Shown here: positions 16,023 to 26,306 of the stretch, piece by piece
How positions within the stretch are numbered: position 1 is the stretch's first letter
How the letters are laid out: each line of letters opens with the position of its first letter
DNA from: Candidatus Zixiibacteriota bacterium
GTDB taxonomy: Bacteria > Zixibacteria > MSB-5A5 > JAABVY01
Reading direction: 5' to 3'
DNA length: 64,000 nt
Assembly: GCA_011056555.1 (NCBI GenBank)
Contig: DSEQ01000027.1
Location: forward strand, 1 to 64,000
Position numbers and translations under genes: made by a program
Notes under the pieces: model-generated
Database searches by the model: none
What the model saw: only the letters and a program-made list of their open reading frames with translations
What the model was told of the DNA's origin: nothing

Positions 16023-16655
16023 ATGGGCGCAGTTGATGTTCCCGAAGCTGGCGGCGGTGGAAAAGGCGGAAAAAAGAAAAAACGGCGAATAGCGATCCGT
16101 CTCGATATGACACCGATGGTGGATATTGCCTTTCTGCTCCTGATTTTTTACATGGTTACCACCGTGTTTGCGGCTCCACAGGCTATGGATATTAATCTGC
16201 CCAAGGAGACGGACGAGTCGGAGGAGATGGACGTGAAAAAGTCCAACCTGGCGGTCATCAGGGTTGATAGCACAGATACGTACTGGTGGAGTATCGGCGA
16301 TGAAAAAGGATCCAGTCGTCCTATAGATGATAAGAACCTTTTGGACTCTTTACTTGTTAATAATAGACAGAACTACTTCTTGTCAACGCTGGTGAAAATT
16401 CACCCCAAGGCCGATTTCGAGGCTTATGTTGATATCCTGGATGATTTTGCGCGTGTAGAAAACGCCTTCCAGAAGGATAGAGAGTTCGTTGAAGAGTATA
16501 TAGCCGAGAATAGAAGGGTTCTGGGAGAGGACAGGTTTACCGATACTACCTATAGTTATCGGTATACTACCGCACCCTGGAGCGATAGAAGAGATACAAG
16601 AATGCTTGAATTCTCACTGGATTCAATGCGAGCCAGAGGAGAGAGATTACCATGA
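16023..16655 (+). CDS. exbD: ExbD/TolR family protein (second paralogue)
   Basis: The N-terminus is glycine- and lysine-rich (GGGGKGGKKKKRR), followed by the membrane helix LDMTPMVDIAFLLLIFYMVT with the conserved Asp and a periplasmic domain. It shares TYWWS, TLVKIHP and TDTxYSYRYT segments with the copy at 18641, so these two are duplicates. AGGAAAGGTGG lies 8-18 bases upstream. Its stop overlaps the TonB start by 4 bases. ExbD/TonB pairing repeated twice suggests that each pair serves a different outer-membrane partner. Confidence 0.9.
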   Translation: MGAVDVPEAGGGGKGGKKKKRRIAIRLDMTPMVDIAFLLLIFYMVTTVFAAPQAMDINLPKETDESEEMDVKKSNLAVIRVDSTDTYWWSIGDEKGSSRPIDDKNLLDSLLVNNRQNYFLSTLVKIHPKADFEAYVDILDDFARVENAFQKDREFVEEYIAENRRVLGEDRFTDTTYSYRYTTAPWSDRRDTRMLEFSLDSMRARGERLP

Positions 16656-17404
16656 GTAATGGACAACAGTTCGCTCAGGCGCCCTACGGTGCATTTGAGC
16701 TGAAAAGATCCTACCAGAAGCATATGCTGATGGGAACTCTGATCTCATGTGCGCTGCCATTACTGGTCATGGCCGTAATCCTGCTGGTCGGATATATCAA
16801 GCAGATGGGTAGGGAAGAGGTGGCAGTGAACGCCGATGCGGCGCCTGTTTATGTCGATTTGACCCAGCTCCCTCCTCCCACTATCCAGAAGACGGTGAAG
16901 AAGCCGGAAATTCACAAGGAGAAAATCGAGCTGCCCAAGATCGGTATTCCTAATCCCGTTGCCGATGAAGAGGTTATGGAAGTCCAGGTGCTGGCCACCA
17001 ATCTCCAGAAGGTCGAGCTCTCCGCAGCTGATCTGGGAGAAGGCGGAGGCACCGATCTTTACGGCGACAATACAGTTGTTGATATTCTGGATGACATCCT
17101 TCCTCAACCGGATGAATTTGTCGCTTTTGATGAAGAGCCTCAGCTTCTGGTGGCTCCCGAACCGACATATCCTGAGATGGCCAAGAAGGCCGGTGTCACC
17201 GGGACGGTCTGGATTAAGGTGCTGGTGGACACGGAAGGTAATGTGCGCGATGCCCTTATTGTCAAAGAATCCGGTGTAAATGCCGGTTTCGAGGAAGCGG
17301 CTCTGGATGCGGCCTGGGAAAGGAAATACCGTCCGGCCATGCAGAACAACCAGCCGGTAGCTGTATGGGTGGCGTATAAGGTCAGGTTTACGCTCAAGAA
17401 TTAG
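16652..17404 (+). CDS. tonB: TonB family energy-transducing protein
   Basis: After a short cytoplasmic start (GAFELKRSYQKH) come one membrane helix (LMGTLISCALPLLVMAVILL), a proline-rich periplasmic linker, and a C-terminal TonB domain. The TonB domain (PTYPEMAKKAGVTGTVWIKV, GFEEAALDAAWERKYRPA, then PVAVWVAYKVRFTLK) contacts the TonB box of outer-membrane receptors. It is translationally coupled to exbD upstream and followed by a strong terminator, so it closes the operon that begins with exbB. The protein at 19267 is a close paralogue with the same N-terminal motif. Confidence 0.9.
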   Translation: MSNGQQFAQAPYGAFELKRSYQKHMLMGTLISCALPLLVMAVILLVGYIKQMGREEVAVNADAAPVYVDLTQLPPPTIQKTVKKPEIHKEKIELPKIGIPNPVADEEVMEVQVLATNLQKVELSAADLGEGGGTDLYGDNTVVDILDDILPQPDEFVAFDEEPQLLVAPEPTYPEMAKKAGVTGTVWIKVLVDTEGNVRDALIVKESGVNAGFEEAALDAAWERKYRPAMQNNQPVAVWVAYKVRFTLKN

Positions 17405-17433
17405 TTGAGCGGAAAGAATTTGCAGAAATAAGC

Positions 17434-17485
17434 AAATCCTCCTTGTTGGCGTCAAATGGTTGAACGTCAACCAGGAGGATTTTTT
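17434..17485 (+). terminator. rho-independent terminator after tonB
   Basis: AAATCCTCCTTGTTGGCGT pairs with ACGTCAACCAGGAGGATTT, with a few wobbles or mismatches, and a run of T's follows the second arm. This is a long, stable hairpin 30 bases after the tonB stop. Confidence 0.85.
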
Positions 17486-17528
17486 ATACCCATCTGTATG
17501 AAGGCTGCTGTAAAACGGGTCGAGTTTC

Positions 17529-17636
17529 GTCATCTGGAGGAGCGAGAGCTCTTGAGCTTGAGCGACGTAATGATCTCTGCGGCTGTTCTTAAAGGAACGC
17601 GGAGATTCCCACTGTTGTCCTCGCCTTCGGCCGGAC
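17529..17636. repeat. decayed interspersed repeat, copy 3 (intergenic 17405-17845)
   Basis: GTCATCTGGAGGAGCGAGAGC, then ACGTAATGATCTCTGCGG, and later GCGGAGATTCCCAC...TCCTCGCC resemble the left arm and the inverted middle (GTGGGAATCTCT) of the copy at 58192. The match is partial. The 440-base gap between the two TonB genes otherwise holds the tonB terminator and no convincing gene. Confidence 0.4.
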
Positions 17637-17845
17637 TTTTTCGGAATGGCGTTTCGCCACTTTTTTCGATTTCTGGATTTTTCAAAATGCCCGTACGCTT
17701 TTAGCAGGCTGACAGCATATCAAAGCTCAAATAAAGTACACGGTTTGATCACATTCGGTTCAGGCCATAACTCAAGATTACCCCTTTCAATTTCCGATTT
17801 TAATATTAGACGCGGGAAGTGGCAGGAGTTTTCAAAGGGCTTAGT

Positions 17846-18388
17846 ATGAGTAATCCAAAGAACAGTTACGCCCGGGCAATACCCCGGGCGGCGGGAGCCT
17901 GCGATTACCGAGATACCAGAAAGACACCCGGGGATTCGAATCCGACGAAGTATATGACATTTGTGCTGCTGGCGATTTTTCTGGTCTTCTGGACGCAGGA
18001 TCTGATTTCCGAGCCGCTGGAGAATAAACCGGTGGCGTATGTGGAGGAAAGCTCTGGCCAGGCGGATTCTGATAAGTCGCTGCCCGGTCCTGAGGACCCG
18101 GTGGCTGTTGACCGCCCCCCGGAACTGATAGAGGCCCCTGCTCCCGGTTATCCGCTCGATGCCCTGAAGGTCGGTAAATCCGGTACAGTCCGGGTGAAAG
18201 CACTGGTGGATACGAAAGGCAGGGTGAGGAAAGCAATCATAGAAAAACCATCTGGAGAAGAAATCGGCTTCGAGGAGGCTGCCCTCGAAGCTGCATTCAA
18301 GAGAATATACCGGCCGGCGGAATTCGAAAACAAACCGGTAGCGGTCTGGGTATCCTATGAGGTCAGCTTTGAGCTGAAAAACGAATGA
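17846..18388 (+). CDS. short TonB-like protein
   Basis: A 180-residue protein. About 30 polar residues precede a single membrane helix (YMTFVLLAIFLVFWTQDL). A short linker follows, then a TonB C-terminal domain (PAPGYPLDALKVGKSGTVRVKALVD, FEEAALEAAFKRIYRPA, VAVWVSYEVSFELK). It lacks the GAFELKRxYQK start shared by the two flanking TonB proteins. The ATG at 17846 has AAAGGG upstream; a GTG at 17819 is in frame with no good ribosome site. It stands between terminators, so it is probably a separate transcript. It could drive a distinct receptor or act as an accessory TonB. Confidence 0.78.
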   Translation: MSNPKNSYARAIPRAAGACDYRDTRKTPGDSNPTKYMTFVLLAIFLVFWTQDLISEPLENKPVAYVEESSGQADSDKSLPGPEDPVAVDRPPELIEAPAPGYPLDALKVGKSGTVRVKALVDTKGRVRKAIIEKPSGEEIGFEEAALEAAFKRIYRPAEFENKPVAVWVSYEVSFELKNE

Positions 18389-18423
18389 CCGGCAAAATTC
18401 GCTAATTTCCGCGCCTGATTGAA

Positions 18424-18479
18424 CACTCTCCCGTGTTCAGCCGTCATATAGACAAGACGGCAGACACGGGAGTTTTTTT
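18424..18479 (+). terminator. rho-independent terminator after the short TonB gene
   Basis: ACTCTCCCGTGTTC...GCCGTC pairs with GACGGC...GACACGGGAGT, followed by seven T's. It separates this gene from the next ExbD-TonB pair. Confidence 0.85.
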
Positions 18480-18640
18480 AGCTTCGCCCCGATATCACCG
18501 CTTGAGGCTTTTAGTTTGACCGCGAATGCGGCCGGAATTGCACAACACCTGAACCAGCAGCAGACCGAGAGAGTACGAGACGAATTCGATTGTTCTCAAG
18601 ACAATTGGCCGCAAGGAATTAACGGAAAGGAGCTGATGAC

Positions 18641-19270
18641 ATGGCGGGCGTAAATACAGACTCGCCTGGTAAGGAGGCCGGGAAGGGTAAGAAGGGGCCG
18701 AAAGGAAGGCTCAGGGTGTGGCTGGATATGACGCCGATGGTGGATATTGCGTTCCTGCTGCTGATATTCTATATGGTCACAACCGTATTCGCTGCGCCCC
18801 GGGCTATGGAGATAAATCTTCCGGCGGAAACGGGGCCGATCGATATGCCCCGTTCCAATATCCTTGTGATCAGGGTGGACAGCAGCGGGACATATTGGTG
18901 GAGCATGGGGGATGCCGGGGAGAATCTATACAAAATTGAGAAGAAGAACCTTAGCGATTCACTCGTATCCGCGAATCGACACAATATGCTCCTTTCAACT
19001 CTCGTAAAGATCCACCCCCGAGCCGAGTTTTCGGATTATGTCAATATTATCGACGAAATTGCGCGAACGGAGTCTATCCTGCAAAACGATCGGGAATATA
19101 TTGAGGATTATCTTGTAAAGAATACGGAAGCGCTGGGTCCGGAGAAATTTACTGATACCGCCTTCAGCTATAGATATACTCTGGATAGCTGGCATCCCGC
19201 AAAGGATGACATAACGATACAGCAGGCGATAAAAAGCAGGCAGGCCTTAAAAGAAAGGAGGAGGCCATGA
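18641..19270 (+). CDS. exbD: ExbD/TolR family protein (third paralogue)
   Basis: The basic N-terminus (GKGKKGPKGRLR) leads into the helix LDMTPMVDIAFLLLIFYMVT with the conserved Asp and a periplasmic domain close to that of the copy at 16023 (shared TYWWSMGD, TLVKIHPRAEF, DTAFSYRYT). GGAAAGGAG precedes the ATG. The stop overlaps the TonB start by 4 bases, as in the first pair. There is no ExbB next to it, so it presumably uses the one at 14723. The pair at 18641-20007 looks like a duplicated and diverged copy of 16023-17404. Confidence 0.88.
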   Translation: MAGVNTDSPGKEAGKGKKGPKGRLRVWLDMTPMVDIAFLLLIFYMVTTVFAAPRAMEINLPAETGPIDMPRSNILVIRVDSSGTYWWSMGDAGENLYKIEKKNLSDSLVSANRHNMLLSTLVKIHPRAEFSDYVNIIDEIARTESILQNDREYIEDYLVKNTEALGPEKFTDTAFSYRYTLDSWHPAKDDITIQQAIKSRQALKERRRP

Positions 19271-20007
19271 CGCATACACAAGCTTTTGCCCAGGGACCCT
19301 ACGGCGCTTTTGAGCTGAAAAGATGCTACCAGAAAAATATGTTCACCGGGACAGTAATTTCTGCATTGATTCCAATTGTGATATTTTTGATTCTGGCATT
19401 TATCAGTTATCTGACTCCCGCCCCTGTGACCGAGGTTGTCAAAGCGCCACCGGGTGGAGTCTATGATGATATTCCGCCGCCGATCGGTCTGAATGTGCCC
19501 CGGTCGGAAACGAGACTTAATGTCGACATAGGCAAATTCAAACCGGGTGCTATTCCCAATCCTGTCGATGCGACCGAAACATTCGAAACGGCCATGATTC
19601 CGACAAATCTTCAGAAAGTCGATATCGTGACTGCTCAGGCGAATCAACAGGCCGGCGGAATGGCGGGAGGGATATACGACGTGGAAGATATTGAAAGAAA
19701 TATCATTCCCGATCCCGGGACATTCATATACCGTACAGATGAGCCTTTCCTCCTGGATGCACCGGTGCCTGACTATCCTGGGATGGCGCGCGAGGCAGGT
19801 ATTGAGGGCCAGGTCTGGATGCAGATATTTGTTGATAAAGAGGGTGAGGTCGCTGATGTCAGGGTGCTCAAATCCTCGAATACAAGTGCCGGTTTTGAAG
19901 AGGCCGCAGCCGCCGCAGCATGGGGGAGAAGATACCGTCCCGCCATGCAGAACGATCAGCCGGTGGGGGTCTGGATTTCGTACAAGGTGAGCTTCAAGCT
20001 GAAATAA
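19267..20007 (+). CDS. tonB: TonB family protein (paralogue)
   Basis: The N-terminal motif GPYGAFELKRCYQKN is shared with the TonB at 16652. It is followed by a membrane helix (GTVISALIPIVIFLILAFIS), a proline-rich linker (VYDDIPPPIGLNVPRSE) and a TonB C-terminal domain (YPGMAREAGIEGQVWMQIFVD, GFEEAAAAAAWGRRYRPA, VGVWISYKVSFKLK). It is coupled to the ExbD upstream. It ends only 5 bases before the convergent isochorismatase-like gene, leaving no room for a separate terminator. It probably energises a receptor set different from the first TonB. Confidence 0.9.
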   Translation: MTHTQAFAQGPYGAFELKRCYQKNMFTGTVISALIPIVIFLILAFISYLTPAPVTEVVKAPPGGVYDDIPPPIGLNVPRSETRLNVDIGKFKPGAIPNPVDATETFETAMIPTNLQKVDIVTAQANQQAGGMAGGIYDVEDIERNIIPDPGTFIYRTDEPFLLDAPVPDYPGMAREAGIEGQVWMQIFVDKEGEVADVRVLKSSNTSAGFEEAAAAAAWGRRYRPAMQNDQPVGVWISYKVSFKLK

Positions 20008-20012
20008 CGGCT

Positions 20013-20648
20013 CTATTTCATTTGATCAATAATGTTCTCACTTAGCACGACCGGTGCGAATCCAAATGCGATATTTTTCAGCGCGGCCACATGCAGGTCC
20101 TCATTTGCCGTAGCTGTAGCATCGCAGACAAACTGTACCCGGTAATCCTTATTGAAGGCATACCGAGCAGTGGTCTCGCAGCATAGATTTGTCATCACTC
20201 CTGTTACGACAAGATCTTTTACGCCCAAAGTGCGCAGGGTGATTTCAAGATCGGTTCCCTCGAAGGCCGAGTAGCGGTGTTTATGTATCAGCTTCTCGCC
20301 TTTTGCCGGTTTTATCGGCTCGAATATTTCAGCATCAGCCGAACCCTCCTTGCAGTATTCCGCCCACCACCAGGTCAGGTTTCCGCCGTCAAATTCCGGG
20401 GATTTGTGCACATGGGAAGTGAAAATAATGGGGAGATTTTTTGCCCGAAACGCCTTCTGCAATTTCTGAATGTTCTTTATCGTGTATTGCGAATCCGGCA
20501 AATATGCCGGGCCGGTTTCATGCACGAAAAAATTCTGCATGTCAATAATCAGGAGCGCCGTATGTTCCCGGTCGAGTTCAAATGAATGTGTGTTGTAGGC
20601 CTCGATTTCCCGCAGCCATACCGCCGCTTTTGCATCTATGGCAGACAT
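20013..20648 (-). CDS. isochorismatase-family cysteine hydrolase
   Basis: A 211-residue alpha/beta hydrolase of the isochorismatase/nicotinamidase superfamily. The catalytic triad is visible as Asp36 (LLIIDMQNFF), Lys123 (LIHKHRYSAF) and Cys156 (VMTNLCCETTAR). Substrates in the family are amides or vinyl ethers; nothing here says which. AAGGAG precedes the ATG on the minus strand. The 276-base divergent region contains a possible promoter with a perfect inverted repeat in its spacer (20774-20789). It is convergent with the TonB gene. Confidence 0.88.
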   Translation of the reverse strand: MSAIDAKAAVWLREIEAYNTHSFELDREHTALLIIDMQNFFVHETGPAYLPDSQYTIKNIQKLQKAFRAKNLPIIFTSHVHKSPEFDGGNLTWWWAEYCKEGSADAEIFEPIKPAKGEKLIHKHRYSAFEGTDLEITLRTLGVKDLVVTGVMTNLCCETTARYAFNKDYRVQFVCDATATANEDLHVAALKNIAFGFAPVVLSENIIDQMK

Positions 20649-20860: not shown

Positions 20861-20889
20861 TTGACACCTGCACAAATGTGCAGTATATT
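20861..20889 (+). promoter_or_regulatory. strong promoter with a palindromic operator in its spacer
   Basis: A perfect -35 TTGACA (20861-20866), a 17-base spacer and -10 TATATT (20884-20889). The spacer contains the perfect 7-2-7 palindrome CTGCACAAATGTGCAG (20868-20883). A regulator bound here would occlude both boxes, so tight repression of the zinc-ribbon/helicase operon is expected. The repressor is unknown; a LexA-like or XRE-like factor, or the winged helix of the helicase itself, are candidates. Confidence 0.75.
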
Positions 20890-20924
20890 GGATTTGCTTC
20901 AAAAAAAGACAAGGAACGGAAATT

Positions 20925-21092
20925 ATGAAAACTTCAATTTTGAAAATCCAGGCAGGAAATCTCGTCTCTGAATTGCGGATTAACAGTGAGAAGAAACATC
21001 TCTATTTCTCCTGTCCCGATTGTGGATGCCGTCTGGTGCCGTCCTCGGGATGTGCCTACTGTCCCTGTTGCGGGTGGTCAGTTTGTTCTTGA
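20925..21092 (+). CDS. 55-residue zinc-ribbon protein
   Basis: A small ORF with a good ribosome site (AAGGAA) and a strong promoter 36 bases upstream. The first 27 residues are mixed polar, ending in KKHLYFS. The remainder is a zinc ribbon, CPDCGCRLVPSSGCAYCPCCGW, with two CxxC-type knuckles plus extra cysteines (9 in total). The ribbon resembles the small zinc ribbons at the C-terminus of class II ribonucleotide reductases, but no reductase is present. It ends 9 bases before the helicase ATG, and the helicase ribosome site overlaps its stop. A role as a nucleic-acid or protein-binding partner of the helicase is inferred from this layout only. Confidence 0.72.
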   Translation: MKTSILKIQAGNLVSELRINSEKKHLYFSCPDCGCRLVPSSGCAYCPCCGWSVCS

Positions 21093-21101
21093 GAGGACTT
21101 G

Positions 21102-23702
21102 ATGCGTATTGCTGAACTTGAAATATACGGTATTCCAAGGCTTCTGATAAAAAGCTGGCAGGAGAATGTAGGCTCAGAGCTTCTGCCGATGCAGGAAATT
21201 GCTGTCAGGGAGCATGGACTCCTGGAGAGGGGCAACCTGATCGTTTCAGCGCCCACCTCGTCGGGCAAGACCTTCTGCGCCGAGATCGCCATGGCACGGG
21301 CATTGCTGAATGGCCAGAAGGCGGTCTGCCTGGTCCCGCTCAAGGCGCTGGCCGAGGAACGATATCGGGAATTCAGCAGGAAATATGAACCGCTCGGTCT
21401 CAAGACGATTATTTCCACCAGCGACCGTAAAGAATTCGACAGATGCTTCAGCAAGGGCGATTTCAACCTGGCGATTGTCATCTTCGAGAAAATGAACCAG
21501 ATGCTGAGCAGCAATCTCGATCTTCTCTCTTATATCGATTTGATCGTAATCGATGAACTGCAGATGATTGCTGATCAATCGCGCGGCGCAGTTCTGGAAA
21601 TGTCCCTTTTAAAGATTATGCATTCAAAATACAAATGCCGCCTGCTGGGTCTCTCGGCCGTTTTATCGGGAGCAAAGAAGCTGGCCGCATGGCTTGATGC
21701 AGAGCTGTTTATTTACGGACATCGCCCGGTCGACCTGTACCAGGGAATTTTGTGGCGCGGTGAATACGCATACAGGAAGAAGAACAGCGGTGAACGCGGA
21801 AGCGAGCGCCTTCTCGATGATGAATCTCTTCTGCCCGAGGAACAGCTATTGGGGGTTGTCGATGAATTAGTCAGGCGGGGTGAGAAAGTGCTTGTTTTTC
21901 TCAAGAGCAAAGCGGCCTGCCGCCATTATGCCGGTCAGCTCTCGGAGAGAGTCGATTTACCGCCCGCCGAAAACGCCATTCAGAATCTCGGATTATGCAG
22001 TCAAACAGCCCTGAGCGGAGCGCTGGATGAACTTTTGCAGAGGGGAATAGCATTCCATCATGCCGACCTCTCCTTCGAACAGAGAAAAGAGATCGAGGAG
22101 GGATATCGAAATGATGAAATAAAGGTGCTGTTTGCCACCACAACACTCTCTATGGGATTGAATCTGCCTGCCACCACTGTTCTGCTGGAGCCGTTTAAAT
22201 TTGCGGGGGGCTGTTACAATCCCCGCGCTCTCCCTCAGCATCTAAGCTGGCCGGAGTACGAAAACATGTGCGGGCGGGCCGGGCGATTGAGATATGTCAG
22301 CAATCCGGGTAAGGCCATGATACTGGTGAACTCGGAGTTCGAAAAAGAGGTAATCTGGTCGAAATTTATCGAGGGGCGCCCACCTGGCCTTGAGGGGCAA
22401 CTGCATACCCGTGAGGTACTTGATATAGTGCTTGACCTGGTTTGCTCCGGATGTTGCCGCAGCGTAAATGATTTGAAAAATGTCCTGGCGCGAAGTTTCA
22501 GCGGAGATGAATATCTTGCGGGCAAAGTCGAGACTGCGGTAGTTGTCTGTCGCGATCATAAATGGATCGAATCTGAAGATGAGATCCTCGCGGGAACCGC
22601 GCTTGGATGTGTCATCTCTACTTTCGGGATCACTGCCAAATCCGCAGAAAAAGCAATTTCACTTTTGAGATCGGAACCGCCTATGGAGAGTATCTTGTGG
22701 CTATTTGAATTTGCTAATTCAGCCGAGGTTAACAGAAATTCATCCTCGATGCAGGGCAGAATCAATTCCGGCGCCATTTCAGAGCTAATAGGTGATTTTG
22801 AGCTAAAGGAATATCCGCAGTTCCGATTGAGCAAGATTATTTCGAATCCCGAGCTCCTGGATCATGCGGCCATGACCAGAATTGCACAGACATTGGCTTT
22901 GGCGGAATGGTGCAATGGGACTGCTGTATGTGAAATCGAGAACTGTTATCAGATATCAGCGGGCAGCCTCATGAGCCTTGCGGAAACCTGCGCCTGGCTC
23001 TCAGAGAGCACAGCAGCTATGGCACGCGTGTTTAATCTGCCGCGAAATATCCGGCTGTTTTTCAAGAGGCTTGCGTTCATGCTTCGCCATGGCCTGCGCT
23101 TTGAGCTGCGTTCAATCTGGAAGCTGGGCCACGAAATCCTGGGACGTGAAGATTATCCCAGGCTTAGCGCGCAAGGGATAAGGAATGCGAATGATCTGGT
23201 ATCCGCAAATCCCGACACACTTGAAAAAATTTTGGGTGCGATGAAAGCGGGGAAAATCCGCAAGAAGATTCAGGTCGCAAAAAATAAAAATAAGGAGGAC
23301 AAAATGAATGGTGAACTGGCATGTAAACTGGTTTTGGAGGGCAGGTCAAACCGTGACCGTCTGACCGTCAGGTTCTTCGGGCGGGAACTTCCCCTGACCC
23401 TCAAAAGCTTTAAATATTTAGCCAAGCTGGCATGTGCAAAATACCTGGATGCGCAAAACAACGGCTGGCTTCACAAAGATCAGCTTGAGCCGGGCTTCAA
23501 CCAGGCGCGTTATATCTATAATCTCAAGAAGGAATTGGGCTTAAGCAAGGATCAGGGCCTCCTGGAGAATAATCGCGGCGGTTATTACCGCCTTAATCTA
23601 AATCCGGATGAGATTCGACTCAATCTTGAAAACCTCAAACGGATCCAGGATTATGAGCTGAAGTCGATCGCAGAACGATATGAAAATCTTCAGGTTAGCT
23701 GA
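21102..23702 (+). CDS. Ski2/Hel308-like superfamily 2 helicase with a C-terminal winged helix
   Basis: An 866-residue helicase. The motor has Walker A APTSSGKT (50-57), the DExx box DELQ (151-154), LSA (motif III), TTTLSMGLNLPATT (motif V) and CGRAGR (390-395). The order and the GRAGR motif match Ski2/Hel308-type enzymes, which act on forked DNA or RNA. After the motor come helical domains and a helix-hairpin-helix-like segment (IRNANDLVSANPDTLEKILGA). The last 132 residues resemble an OmpR-type winged helix (RELPLTLKSFKYLAKLA, IYNLKKELG, LLENNRGGYYRL). A KNKNKEDK linker joins the two parts. I chose the ATG at 21102, with GAGAGG 5 bases upstream. It forms an operon with the zinc-ribbon gene. 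Confidence 0.87.
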   Translation: MRIAELEIYGIPRLLIKSWQENVGSELLPMQEIAVREHGLLERGNLIVSAPTSSGKTFCAEIAMARALLNGQKAVCLVPLKALAEERYREFSRKYEPLGLKTIISTSDRKEFDRCFSKGDFNLAIVIFEKMNQMLSSNLDLLSYIDLIVIDELQMIADQSRGAVLEMSLLKIMHSKYKCRLLGLSAVLSGAKKLAAWLDAELFIYGHRPVDLYQGILWRGEYAYRKKNSGERGSERLLDDESLLPEEQLLGVVDELVRRGEKVLVFLKSKAACRHYAGQLSERVDLPPAENAIQNLGLCSQTALSGALDELLQRGIAFHHADLSFEQRKEIEEGYRNDEIKVLFATTTLSMGLNLPATTVLLEPFKFAGGCYNPRALPQHLSWPEYENMCGRAGRLRYVSNPGKAMILVNSEFEKEVIWSKFIEGRPPGLEGQLHTREVLDIVLDLVCSGCCRSVNDLKNVLARSFSGDEYLAGKVETAVVVCRDHKWIESEDEILAGTALGCVISTFGITAKSAEKAISLLRSEPPMESILWLFEFANSAEVNRNSSSMQGRINSGAISELIGDFELKEYPQFRLSKIISNPELLDHAAMTRIAQTLALAEWCNGTAVCEIENCYQISAGSLMSLAETCAWLSESTAAMARVFNLPRNIRLFFKRLAFMLRHGLRFELRSIWKLGHEILGREDYPRLSAQGIRNANDLVSANPDTLEKILGAMKAGKIRKKIQVAKNKNKEDKMNGELACKLVLEGRSNRDRLTVRFFGRELPLTLKSFKYLAKLACAKYLDAQNNGWLHKDQLEPGFNQARYIYNLKKELGLSKDQGLLENNRGGYYRLNLNPDEIRLNLENLKRIQDYELKSIAERYENLQVS
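23291..23303 (+). promoter_or_regulatory. internal Shine-Dalgarno within the helicase gene
   Basis: TAAGGAGG followed by ACAAA and an in-frame ATG at 23304 lies exactly at the linker between the helicase and its winged helix. It is stronger and better spaced than the ribosome site at the gene's own start. Confidence 0.6.
23304..23702 (+). CDS. possible separately translated winged-helix domain (nested in the helicase gene)
   Basis: Starting at Met735 of the helicase, this in-frame product would be 132 residues: exactly the C-terminal domain that resembles an OmpR-type winged helix. The segments are LTVRFFGRELPLTLKSF (initial sheet), GWLHKDQL, ARYIYNLKKELG (recognition-helix position) and NNRGGYYRLNL (wing). 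The near-perfect Shine-Dalgarno at the domain boundary suggests it is also made alone, as in other nested genes where a domain is supplied in excess. It might bind DNA as part of the helicase complex or act on the palindrome upstream of the operon. This is a prediction without experimental support. Confidence 0.45.
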   Translation: MNGELACKLVLEGRSNRDRLTVRFFGRELPLTLKSFKYLAKLACAKYLDAQNNGWLHKDQLEPGFNQARYIYNLKKELGLSKDQGLLENNRGGYYRLNLNPDEIRLNLENLKRIQDYELKSIAERYENLQVS

Positions 23703-23837
23703 TGGAGAATTCTGATGACGGCCGGAGCGGCAGATAATTGTCATTTTATGAAATTAATGCTGTTAAGATCGTGAACAGTACCGATACATGTTATAAATGG
23801 CAATTTTTCAGTTAAGTCAAAAACATCTCGAGGTCGT

Positions 23838-26306
23838 ATGAGAAAAACTGCCGAGGGGAAAGCATATCCCGTTCTGCCTCTGCGGACAACTCTGATCTAT
23901 CCTAAATGTGTCGGTACCATACAGATCAACCGCCGCAGGTCCCTTAATCTTCTGCTCGACAACAAGGAATCTTCTGATGAGTTTATTCTGGCGCTCCTGA
24001 AAAGGCCCAACAGTAGCGAGGATTCCAGACCCGACAGTTTCTGCGACATCGTGGTCGCCGCCAAAATTATACAGGAAACAAAATTATCGTCAGATATCAT
24101 TTCGGTCACCTTTGAGGGTCTGCGCCGAATGCGTCTCGGAAGGTTCGTAATGGAGGAGCCGTATTTCATGGCCTATGCCGAGGATGTGGAAGAAACCTGT
24201 GATGTCAAAATTCCGCGCCAGGCCTTTATCGAAATAATTAAGTCTCTTAAAGAGATTACTTTAGAGGATAATTCGTATTCATCCGAGCTTTTGAATATTG
24301 CCGAGAAATCTATCAATGATCCCTCTTATTTTAGCGACTCTATCGCCGCCCACCTGCACCTTCCGCTTCTGACCCGGCAACGCATCCTGGAATCACTCGA
24401 CATTCCTGAACGGTTGACAGTTTTGAAACAGGCTATCGATGATGAGCTCAAACAGAATGAAATTCAATCCGAACTTGATTTGAAAGTAAGCCAGTCCATT
24501 CAGCGCAATAAAAAGGAAATCTACCTTCGGGAACAGCTCAAGCAGATATACAAGGAACTGGGTGAGGAGGATCCCACCGAGCGCCTGATCAAACATTTCA
24601 AGGACCAGGTGGCGGTCTCGGCGCACATTCCCGCCTATGTTAAGGATCGCCTCAATCTTGAGATCGAGAGATTGAAGCTTCTGTCGGTTGCCTCAGCCGA
24701 GTACGGTGCAACGAAAAACTATATCGAGCTTCTGCTGGAGCTGCCCTGGTCCAGGTACACCGAAGATGAAACTGATTTAAAAGAGATTGAGAAGACGATT
24801 GAGGGCGAATATTATGGTCCCGGGCGGATCAAGGAACGCATCCTTGAATATCTGGTGATCCGCAAACTCACAGCCGAGATCAGAAGTCCAATTTTATGCC
24901 TGGCGGGACCGCCCGGAACCGGGAAGAGCTCGCTGGCGGCGGCTATTGCCCGGGCCCTGGGACGCCAGTTGATCAATATCAACGCGGCCGGTCTTTCGAT
25001 TGTGGAAGAACTCAAGGGCGACATGCGTAATTTCCCGGGAGCGGTGCCGGGAAGAATCATGCGCGCACTGGCGGAAAAACAGTCTGCCAATCCGGTTGTG
25101 GTTATTGACGACTTGGACAAGATGTCCATGTATACCAGCAACATGTCCCTGCCCCTGGCCATGCTGGAGGTTCTCGACCCCAAGCAGAATAAGTCCTATA
25201 TCGATACCTATGTGGGAATTCCCTTCGATCTCTCCAAAGCGATCTTTATCACCACCGTGGAATCGCTGGAAGAGGTGCCTCCGCCCCTGACCGAGAGGAT
25301 GGAGGTGATTGAGTTTACGGGCTATATTGACTCGGAGAAAATCGAGATCGGTCAGAAATTTATCATCCCCAAGATCCGCAAAGCCCACAAGCTGACAGAG
25401 AAACAATTGAGCTTCACGGTTGGGGCGCTTCGTAAAATCATCCGGAATTATACCCTGGAGTCGGGACTGATCAATTTCAAGCGTGAAATCGAATTGATCT
25501 GCCGCAAAGCATCGCGTATGCTGGCAACTCAAAAGAGCAGGAAGAGCGTAAAGATCACCGAAAGAAATCTGGAGTCATTTTTGGGGCCGCAGGTATATAT
25601 TCCAGAGCTTGTCGAAACTTCTTCCGAAATCGGGATTGCCAACGGACTGGCATGGACGGGTTCCGGAGGCGATATCATGCTCATAGAGGGCATCAAAATG
25701 CGCGGCGGCGGGAATGTCATTTACACCGGCTCTCTCGGGGATGTAATGAAGGAATCCATCCAGGCCTCGCATTCTTATGTGCGCGCGAAAGCGGATATGT
25801 TGGGGATCGACTATGATGATTTTATAAACTATGATATCCATATCCATTTCCCGTCCGGGGCCATTCCCAAAGACGGTCCCTCGGCCGGGGTTACCATATC
25901 CACTGTCATCGCCTCATTAATGTCCGACCGCCCGATAGCCAGCGATATTGCCCTCACAGGGGAAGTCTCTTTGAGGGGCAAAGTATTGCAGGTGTCCGGC
26001 GTGAAGGAGAAGATTGCCGCCGCCCACAGGGCCGGAATCTTCAGGGTTATTCTTCCCAGGGATAACCAGAAGGATATAAAAGAGATGCCCCCGCAGATCA
26101 TAGAGGATATGGAGTTCATATTTGTGGAGAGCCTGGATGAAGTTTTTGCCCGCGCTCTTCTCGATTTTGAACCCCGGGAGTACGGTCTCGAAGCCATGCT
26201 CAAGCAGGAAATTGAGAAACTTAAGAATGAGGACAACAGGCCCCGGAGAGAGCGGCTGGTGGCCAAGAAAAAGAAGAAAAACAATACCCGCCGCCGCAAA
26301 AAATGA
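23838..26306 (+). CDS. divergent Lon-type protease with altered ATPase residues
   Basis: An 822-residue LonA-shaped protein: N-terminal substrate domain (YPVLPLRTTLIYPKCVGTI), coiled helical region, AAA+ module and C-terminal protease. The protease dyad is intact, Ser682 (KDGPSAGVTI) and Lys725 (GVKEKIAAAH), with the same 43-residue spacing as E. coli Ser679/Lys722. Walker A is normal (GPPGTGKSS, 357-365) and the arginine finger (TERMEVI) is kept. The Walker B Glu is Asp425 (VIDDLDKM), the sensor-1 Asn position is Glu475 (FITTVES), and the sensor-2 Arg is Ile (ESGLINFKRE). The pore loop reads MRNFPGAVPG. The C-terminus ends in a very basic tail (AKKKKKNNTRRRKK). It is probably a specialised Lon paralogue; ATP turnover may be slow. 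Confidence 0.88.
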   Translation: MRKTAEGKAYPVLPLRTTLIYPKCVGTIQINRRRSLNLLLDNKESSDEFILALLKRPNSSEDSRPDSFCDIVVAAKIIQETKLSSDIISVTFEGLRRMRLGRFVMEEPYFMAYAEDVEETCDVKIPRQAFIEIIKSLKEITLEDNSYSSELLNIAEKSINDPSYFSDSIAAHLHLPLLTRQRILESLDIPERLTVLKQAIDDELKQNEIQSELDLKVSQSIQRNKKEIYLREQLKQIYKELGEEDPTERLIKHFKDQVAVSAHIPAYVKDRLNLEIERLKLLSVASAEYGATKNYIELLLELPWSRYTEDETDLKEIEKTIEGEYYGPGRIKERILEYLVIRKLTAEIRSPILCLAGPPGTGKSSLAAAIARALGRQLININAAGLSIVEELKGDMRNFPGAVPGRIMRALAEKQSANPVVVIDDLDKMSMYTSNMSLPLAMLEVLDPKQNKSYIDTYVGIPFDLSKAIFITTVESLEEVPPPLTERMEVIEFTGYIDSEKIEIGQKFIIPKIRKAHKLTEKQLSFTVGALRKIIRNYTLESGLINFKREIELICRKASRMLATQKSRKSVKITERNLESFLGPQVYIPELVETSSEIGIANGLAWTGSGGDIMLIEGIKMRGGGNVIYTGSLGDVMKESIQASHSYVRAKADMLGIDYDDFINYDIHIHFPSGAIPKDGPSAGVTISTVIASLMSDRPIASDIALTGEVSLRGKVLQVSGVKEKIAAAHRAGIFRVILPRDNQKDIKEMPPQIIEDMEFIFVESLDEVFARALLDFEPREYGLEAMLKQEIEKLKNEDNRPRRERLVAKKKKKNNTRRRKK

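Follow-up and report, generated by a model that had tools for sequence, protein, structure and literature searches.

Several bacterial helicases, UvrD, DinG and the mycobacterial Lhr among them, are regulated by the SOS response or by DNA damage, and the repressor LexA cleaves itself, with no need of Lon for its removal. The LexA box of Fibrobacter reportedly takes the form TGCNC-N4-GTGCA. The helicase Hel308/HELQ has been described from archaea and metazoans (PMC3905894). Among open-licence papers we found no report on the SOS response in Zixibacteria, nor on a bacterial Hel308 under SOS control.

Here we analysed a 64,000-nucleotide stretch of DNA from a Zixibacteria genome (the window), in which a promoter containing a palindrome is followed on the same strand by genes for a zinc ribbon, a helicase and a Lon-type protein. 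All of these elements, with the gaps of 9 and 135 bases between the genes, were recovered where a preliminary description had placed them (Table 1). Taken as a whole, the locus is probably a damage-induced, LexA-repressed operon encoding a Hel308-type helicase for replication-fork or recombination repair. The inducible genome-maintenance unit proposed earlier is thereby supported and sharpened, its operator now being a predicted LexA box shared with the lexA promoter.

Table 1. Features of the ribbon–helicase locus (positions in the window)
Feature	Position	Strand	Basis or remark
Sigma-70-type promoter, TTGACA-17-TATATT (17 bp between TTGACA at 20861 and TATATT at 20889)	20861..20889	+	11/12 consensus matches; tops all promoters in the region
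Predicted LexA (SOS) operator, CTGCACAAATGTGCAG	20868..20883		Within promoter spacer; second exact copy at lexA promoter
Zinc ribbon, 55 aa, CxxC-x9-C-x2-C-x2-C-x4-C	20925..21092	+	NrdJ-tail homology (hhalign); six invariant Cys
Hel308-type SF2 helicase, 866 aa (ATG at 21102, 9 bases past ribbon ORF; stop at 23702)	21102..23702	+	NCBIfam PRK02362, E 6e-100, residues 2-736; Hel308 fold match
C-terminal OmpR/PhoB-type winged helix of helicase, residues 742-866	23325..23699	+	Model pLDDT 88.9; fold matches
Lon paralogue, eroded AAA+ motifs, intact Ser-Lys dyad (start 135 bases past helicase stop)	23838..26306	+	Motif comparison, tree, linkage; neighbour, not core

A predicted LexA operator and its conservation

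The sequence between the −35 and −10 elements of the ribbon–helicase promoter is a perfect 6+6 palindrome, and its pattern, CTGCAC-N4-GTGCAG, occurs just twice in the 3.58 Mb genome, versus about 0.2 copies expected by composition. One copy is the site described here and the other lies in the lexA promoter, TTGACAA[CTGCACATGTGTGCAG]TTATAT, where the box again occupies the −35/−10 spacer; the LexA encoded downstream has 204 aa and carries LexA-type cleavage and catalytic motifs. Within this genome the promoter-embedded motif TTGACNNCTGNNCNNNNGNNCAGT was found free of mismatches only at lexA and the helicase operon, with about 0.03 occurrences expected by composition. The helicase operator matches the lexA operator of its own genome and overlaps the core promoter, and the palindrome is, judging by sequence, very probably a LexA (SOS) operator; as a LexA box, it implies that the inducer should be DNA damage. 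No other strong LexA target was found in this genome besides these two. A wider exact regulon was considered and rejected, the third-best promoter-embedded site (C2:56126, one mismatch) lying inside a pilin-like gene and being ascribed to chance.

The recA gene of the same genome has no LexA box, which would make the SOS network unusual. Across the recA loci of the class (L142–L168) the box was not recognizable in most, with CTGAACAAATGTTCAG-type boxes in family f3 only. We also observed a second LexA-family gene (G000:C7:119984-120571; L141), itself without a box, such that the genome has two LexA proteins.

The box is widely retained among relatives. It was present with at least 10 of 12 positions matched in 39 of the 45 Zixibacteria helicase loci that had enough upstream DNA, and in 38 of the 45 it was preceded by TTGAC and followed by TAT, leaving a few of the scanned loci with no recognizable box; in control segments, any box of at least 10/12 was seen in 39 of 724. 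The idea, in the preliminary description, of an operator-controlled helicase bearing a winged helix, here a C-terminal OmpR-type domain, holds good. The named genomes of the clade are all metagenome assemblies, several of them fragmented.

The lexA promoters of the relatives also display the TTGAC-box-TAT layout found at the helicase. In one genome (G022) the helicase box is CTGAACATCCGTTCAG and the lexA box TTGAACATCCGTTCAG, in another (G051) they are CTGCTCAAATGAGCAG and CTGCCCGAATGAGCAG, respectively, and in the f3 genomes AAC...GTT forms occur at the helicase, lexA and recA. When helicase boxes were paired with the lexA boxes of their own genomes (27 genomes, with shared ancestry left in the comparison), the pairing was better than in all 20,000 shuffles; at the level of sequence, the helicase box covaries with the lexA box across lineages. 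Using phylum-specific patterns, we identified CTGAA-N6-TTCAG in Hydrogenedentota at lexA (7/7), recA (6/6, one mismatch) and the helicase (7/7, zero to one mismatch), and a CGAAC-N4-GTTCG-type box in Armatimonadota at both the helicase and lexA (3/3 each). A promoter scan of the Sumerlaeota helicase homologues revealed no recognizable LexA-type box. As the boxes in Zixibacteria, Hydrogenedentota and Armatimonadota match those of their own lexA genes, the helicase family appears to carry each phylum's own LexA box at the same promoter position.

Two further observations concern these upstream regions. At two loci (L045 and L046; G004:C154 near 39752 and G005:C261 near 20) the ribbon–helicase operon has a divergent neighbour, a gene for a RecA-fold protein that may be ImuA-like, and an additional LexA box between the two hints at SOS control from a common region. 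Upstream of some ribbons the peptide LTPAQMCSI seemed to be conserved, but it was discarded, being the promoter and operator translated in frame and no protein.

The zinc ribbon and the helicase

The six cysteines of the ribbon were the sole fully invariant columns among 26 aligned homologues, and their spacing is that of the six-cysteine tail of the clade's own NrdJ. Comparison with NrdJ tails of the same clade (hhalign probability 98.9 %, E 3e-17) gave a similarity that spans only the last 31 residues or so, and in sequence the ribbon looks like the tail of a class II ribonucleotide reductase (NrdJ) that has become a protein of its own. In a studied NrdJ the C-terminal tail binds zinc and electron transfer depends on all six of its cysteines, and in some NrdJ the tail is a separate gene (PMC5704485). 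We therefore weighed whether the ribbon might act on ribonucleotide reductase instead of the helicase, as an SOS-induced extra electron-shuttle tail that raises dNTP supply and is merely co-transcribed. However, the NrdJ of this genome is already tailed, the similarity covers a short segment, and the ribbon proteins of several lineages carry a further ribbon at the N-terminus, absent from the NrdJ tails compared; we consider such a role unlikely.

A small ribbon ORF lies upstream of the helicase in 29 loci, including that of the window, and the ORFs collected by a loose two-CxxC criterion all fit the strict six-cysteine pattern as well. In 12 loci a box is found 36–199 bases before the helicase with no ribbon, and the ribbon is therefore best seen as an accessory, common but dispensable. 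The pairing of ribbon and helicase expected by the preliminary description thus holds in the former loci and breaks down in the latter; that description had named helicases lacking ribbon and palindrome as counting against its proposal, and in these 12 loci the ribbon is indeed missing, yet the palindrome box is kept. For the ribbon, the probable part is that of a zinc/dithiol accessory protein, which would be co-induced with the helicase.

The helicase contains, in order, two RecA domains, a winged helix, a ratchet, a helix-loop-helix and the C-terminal OmpR-type winged helix. Its AlphaFold model (pLDDT 87.6) aligned with Hel308 structures at TM 0.84–0.89 (by target length) over about 740 columns, and the fold match covered all five domains of the Hel308 core (RecA1, RecA2, winged helix, ratchet and helix-loop-helix). 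The sequences of Hel308 crystal structures matched as well, whilst the scores stayed below the curated Hel308 cut-offs (NF040935, 256 bits vs 1200; best model PRK02362, 335.6 vs 887). The helicase motifs are intact, with motif II reading DELQ, not DEIH/DExH; elsewhere, it is DExQ in most of the Zixibacteria sampled and DELE in Hydrogenedentota. Within the class, 56 of 58 relatives possess a homologue, C-terminal winged helix included.

This C-terminal domain is itself conserved and is preceded by a disordered linker at about residues 730–739. In fold searches its top PDB matches were nearly all DNA-binding domains of the OmpR/PhoB family, at a modest E of about 0.02. The Pfam model Trans_reg_C scored above its cut-off on this region in the Hydrogenedentota and Armatimonadota homologues, and those of Sumerlaeota match or reach the cut-off; the C-terminal region of the window helicase had no Pfam match of its own. 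In a tree whose alignment included the extra domain, the fused forms made up one group (98/93) that includes neither the Hel308 proteins of archaea nor the other Hel308-like proteins of bacteria. On sequence and modelled fold, we assign the window helicase as Hel308-type with an added OmpR-type winged helix. A stand-alone relative of this winged helix was observed in a phage-like region (G000:C20:38080-40375; L091:5079-7375), beside a HerA-like ATPase.

As Ski2-like helicases can act on RNA, DNA is a presumed substrate here, and we considered an SOS-induced Ski2-like RNA helicase working on damage-related RNA or R-loops. The Ski2 group does include RNA helicases, and the DELQ of motif II, together with a weak Suv3 DEXQ match, would fit such an enzyme. 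Nevertheless, the full-length fold match ranks the Hel308 DNA helicases first and then the Pol theta helicase, ahead of Brr2, and domain 4 matches the archaeal Hel308 type, making an RNA-directed function quite improbable.

The Lon paralogue and surrounding genes

The Lon of the window was identified by NCBIfam TIGR00763 (over cut-off) and is one of three in its genome. Compared with the two other Lons of that genome and with orthologues, its Walker B carries DD, not DE, and its sensor-1 Asn is replaced by E, whilst the protease dyad is kept (Ser682, in PKDGPSAG, and Lys725); by sequence it thus lacks the Walker B and sensor-1 residues of an active ATP-dependent Lon and retains the Ser-Lys dyad. 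Helicase-adjacent Lons outside families f1 and f2 mostly have ED in Walker B and R or Q at sensor-1. We also noted a clade of Lon paralogues, widespread in Zixibacteria independently of the operon, whose AAA+ motifs are eroded while the protease dyad is intact (L284–L291, L294–L295).

A three-gene inducible unit, with the ribbon as partner of the helicase and Lon removing a repressor or effector, was the original proposal for this locus. It gains from the shared strand and short gaps, and from the 17 loci, the window among them, in which Lon adjoins the helicase (families f1, f2, f6, f8 and f17), these adjacent Lons forming one tree group (100/97 support) nested in a wider eroded-Lon clade. 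However, eroded relatives are unlinked to the helicase in f3, f10, f12 and f15, the gap between helicase and Lon, counted from the open frame, varies from 63 to 1866 bases across loci, and none of the helicase-adjacent Lons was found to have a convincing LexA box upstream. As Lon is adjacent in some families only and is without a LexA box, we do not count it as part of the core; the three-gene module of the preliminary description is not supported, and Lon is not the constant neighbour that it asked about. Removal of a repressor by Lon found no supporting evidence; LexA, which cleaves itself, does not require it. As an explanation of the locus, the three-gene unit strikes us as very doubtful.

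The preliminary description had also allowed for a defence unit. Hachiman is a helicase paired with a nuclease (PMC12278908), and although PADLOC models of its helicase HamB match the helicase core (E 4e-33), an anti-phage helicase of this kind is extremely improbable, given that these are core-helicase cross-matches, that the Hel308-type models of NCBIfam give a much stronger match, and at full length, that the neighbours are a zinc ribbon and Lon with no HamA-like nuclease or other effector gene in the operon, and that nearly every genome of the class has the gene, which is under predicted LexA control in three phyla.

Beyond the ribbon and Lon, the surroundings hold an isochorismatase-family gene, which is the divergent neighbour of the operon (20013-20648, minus strand), and a BACON/dockerin protein. 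Two TonB-type genes and an ExbD gene lie upstream (window 16652-20648).

Proposed mechanism and comparison with known systems

In the LexA-repressed operon that we favour, LexA bound to the palindrome between −35 and −10 would block the promoter. DNA damage would then lead to RecA filaments and self-cleavage of LexA, upon which ribbon and helicase would be made; release of LexA repression by damage is, on the strength of the operator, very likely at this operon. The helicase would most likely load where forks have stalled or broken, on single-stranded DNA, and translocate 3'-5', remodelling forks or intermediates of recombination; its extra winged helix would grip the duplex or the junction of the substrate. 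Operator identity, covariation with lexA, helicase family, intact motifs, domain fusion and conservation can all be read from the sequences, whereas repression as such, a DNA substrate, repair at forks and the part played by the ribbon are what we infer. From family and regulation taken together, it seems reasonably likely that the protein acts much as Hel308 does, at damaged forks or on intermediates of recombination. A more elaborate scheme, which we hold to be improbable, would combine a detached NrdJ electron-shuttle tail with the Hel308-type helicase under SOS control, such that damage induces fork remodelling along with either a dNTP boost or a redox-sensitive zinc switch on the helicase, with tail and helicase jointly forming the bacterial equivalent of the HELQ/Pol theta helicase repair branch.

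Three phyla with different LexA boxes thus share a bacterial relative of Hel308 that bears an additional DNA-binding domain and is predicted to be controlled by LexA. Its gene is therefore a candidate for the SOS core, apparently absent from the usual model organisms. Through this gene, damage tolerance could be tested in phyla that have not been cultivated, and its product offers a model, in bacteria, of how HELQ and the Pol theta helicase function.

Several known systems bear comparison. The site in the window, TGCAC-AAAT-GTGCA, fits the Fibrobacter-type LexA box exactly, whereas among the relatives the boxes have diverged, CTGAAC...GTTCAG being one of several forms. With the cysteine-rich C-terminal domain of its clade's own NrdJ the ribbon shares the six-cysteine array and its spacing; unlike that tail, it is a stand-alone small protein in a helicase operon. 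The Lon shares full domain order and the Ser-Lys dyad with canonical Lon, but it has lost the Walker B and sensor-1 residues and neighbours the helicase in some families only. UvrD, DinG and mycobacterial Lhr exemplify the damage-inducible helicase logic proposed for this operon; to our knowledge, they belong to other helicase families and have no OmpR-type winged helix. Archaeal Hel308/Hjm and metazoan HELQ and Pol theta helicase domains have the five-domain core and fold of the window helicase, and fork and recombination substrates are likely to be common to all of them. Compared with archaeal Hel308, the window helicase falls into a separate bacterial clade and is distinguished by its OmpR-type winged helix, its DELQ motif II and its predicted LexA control.
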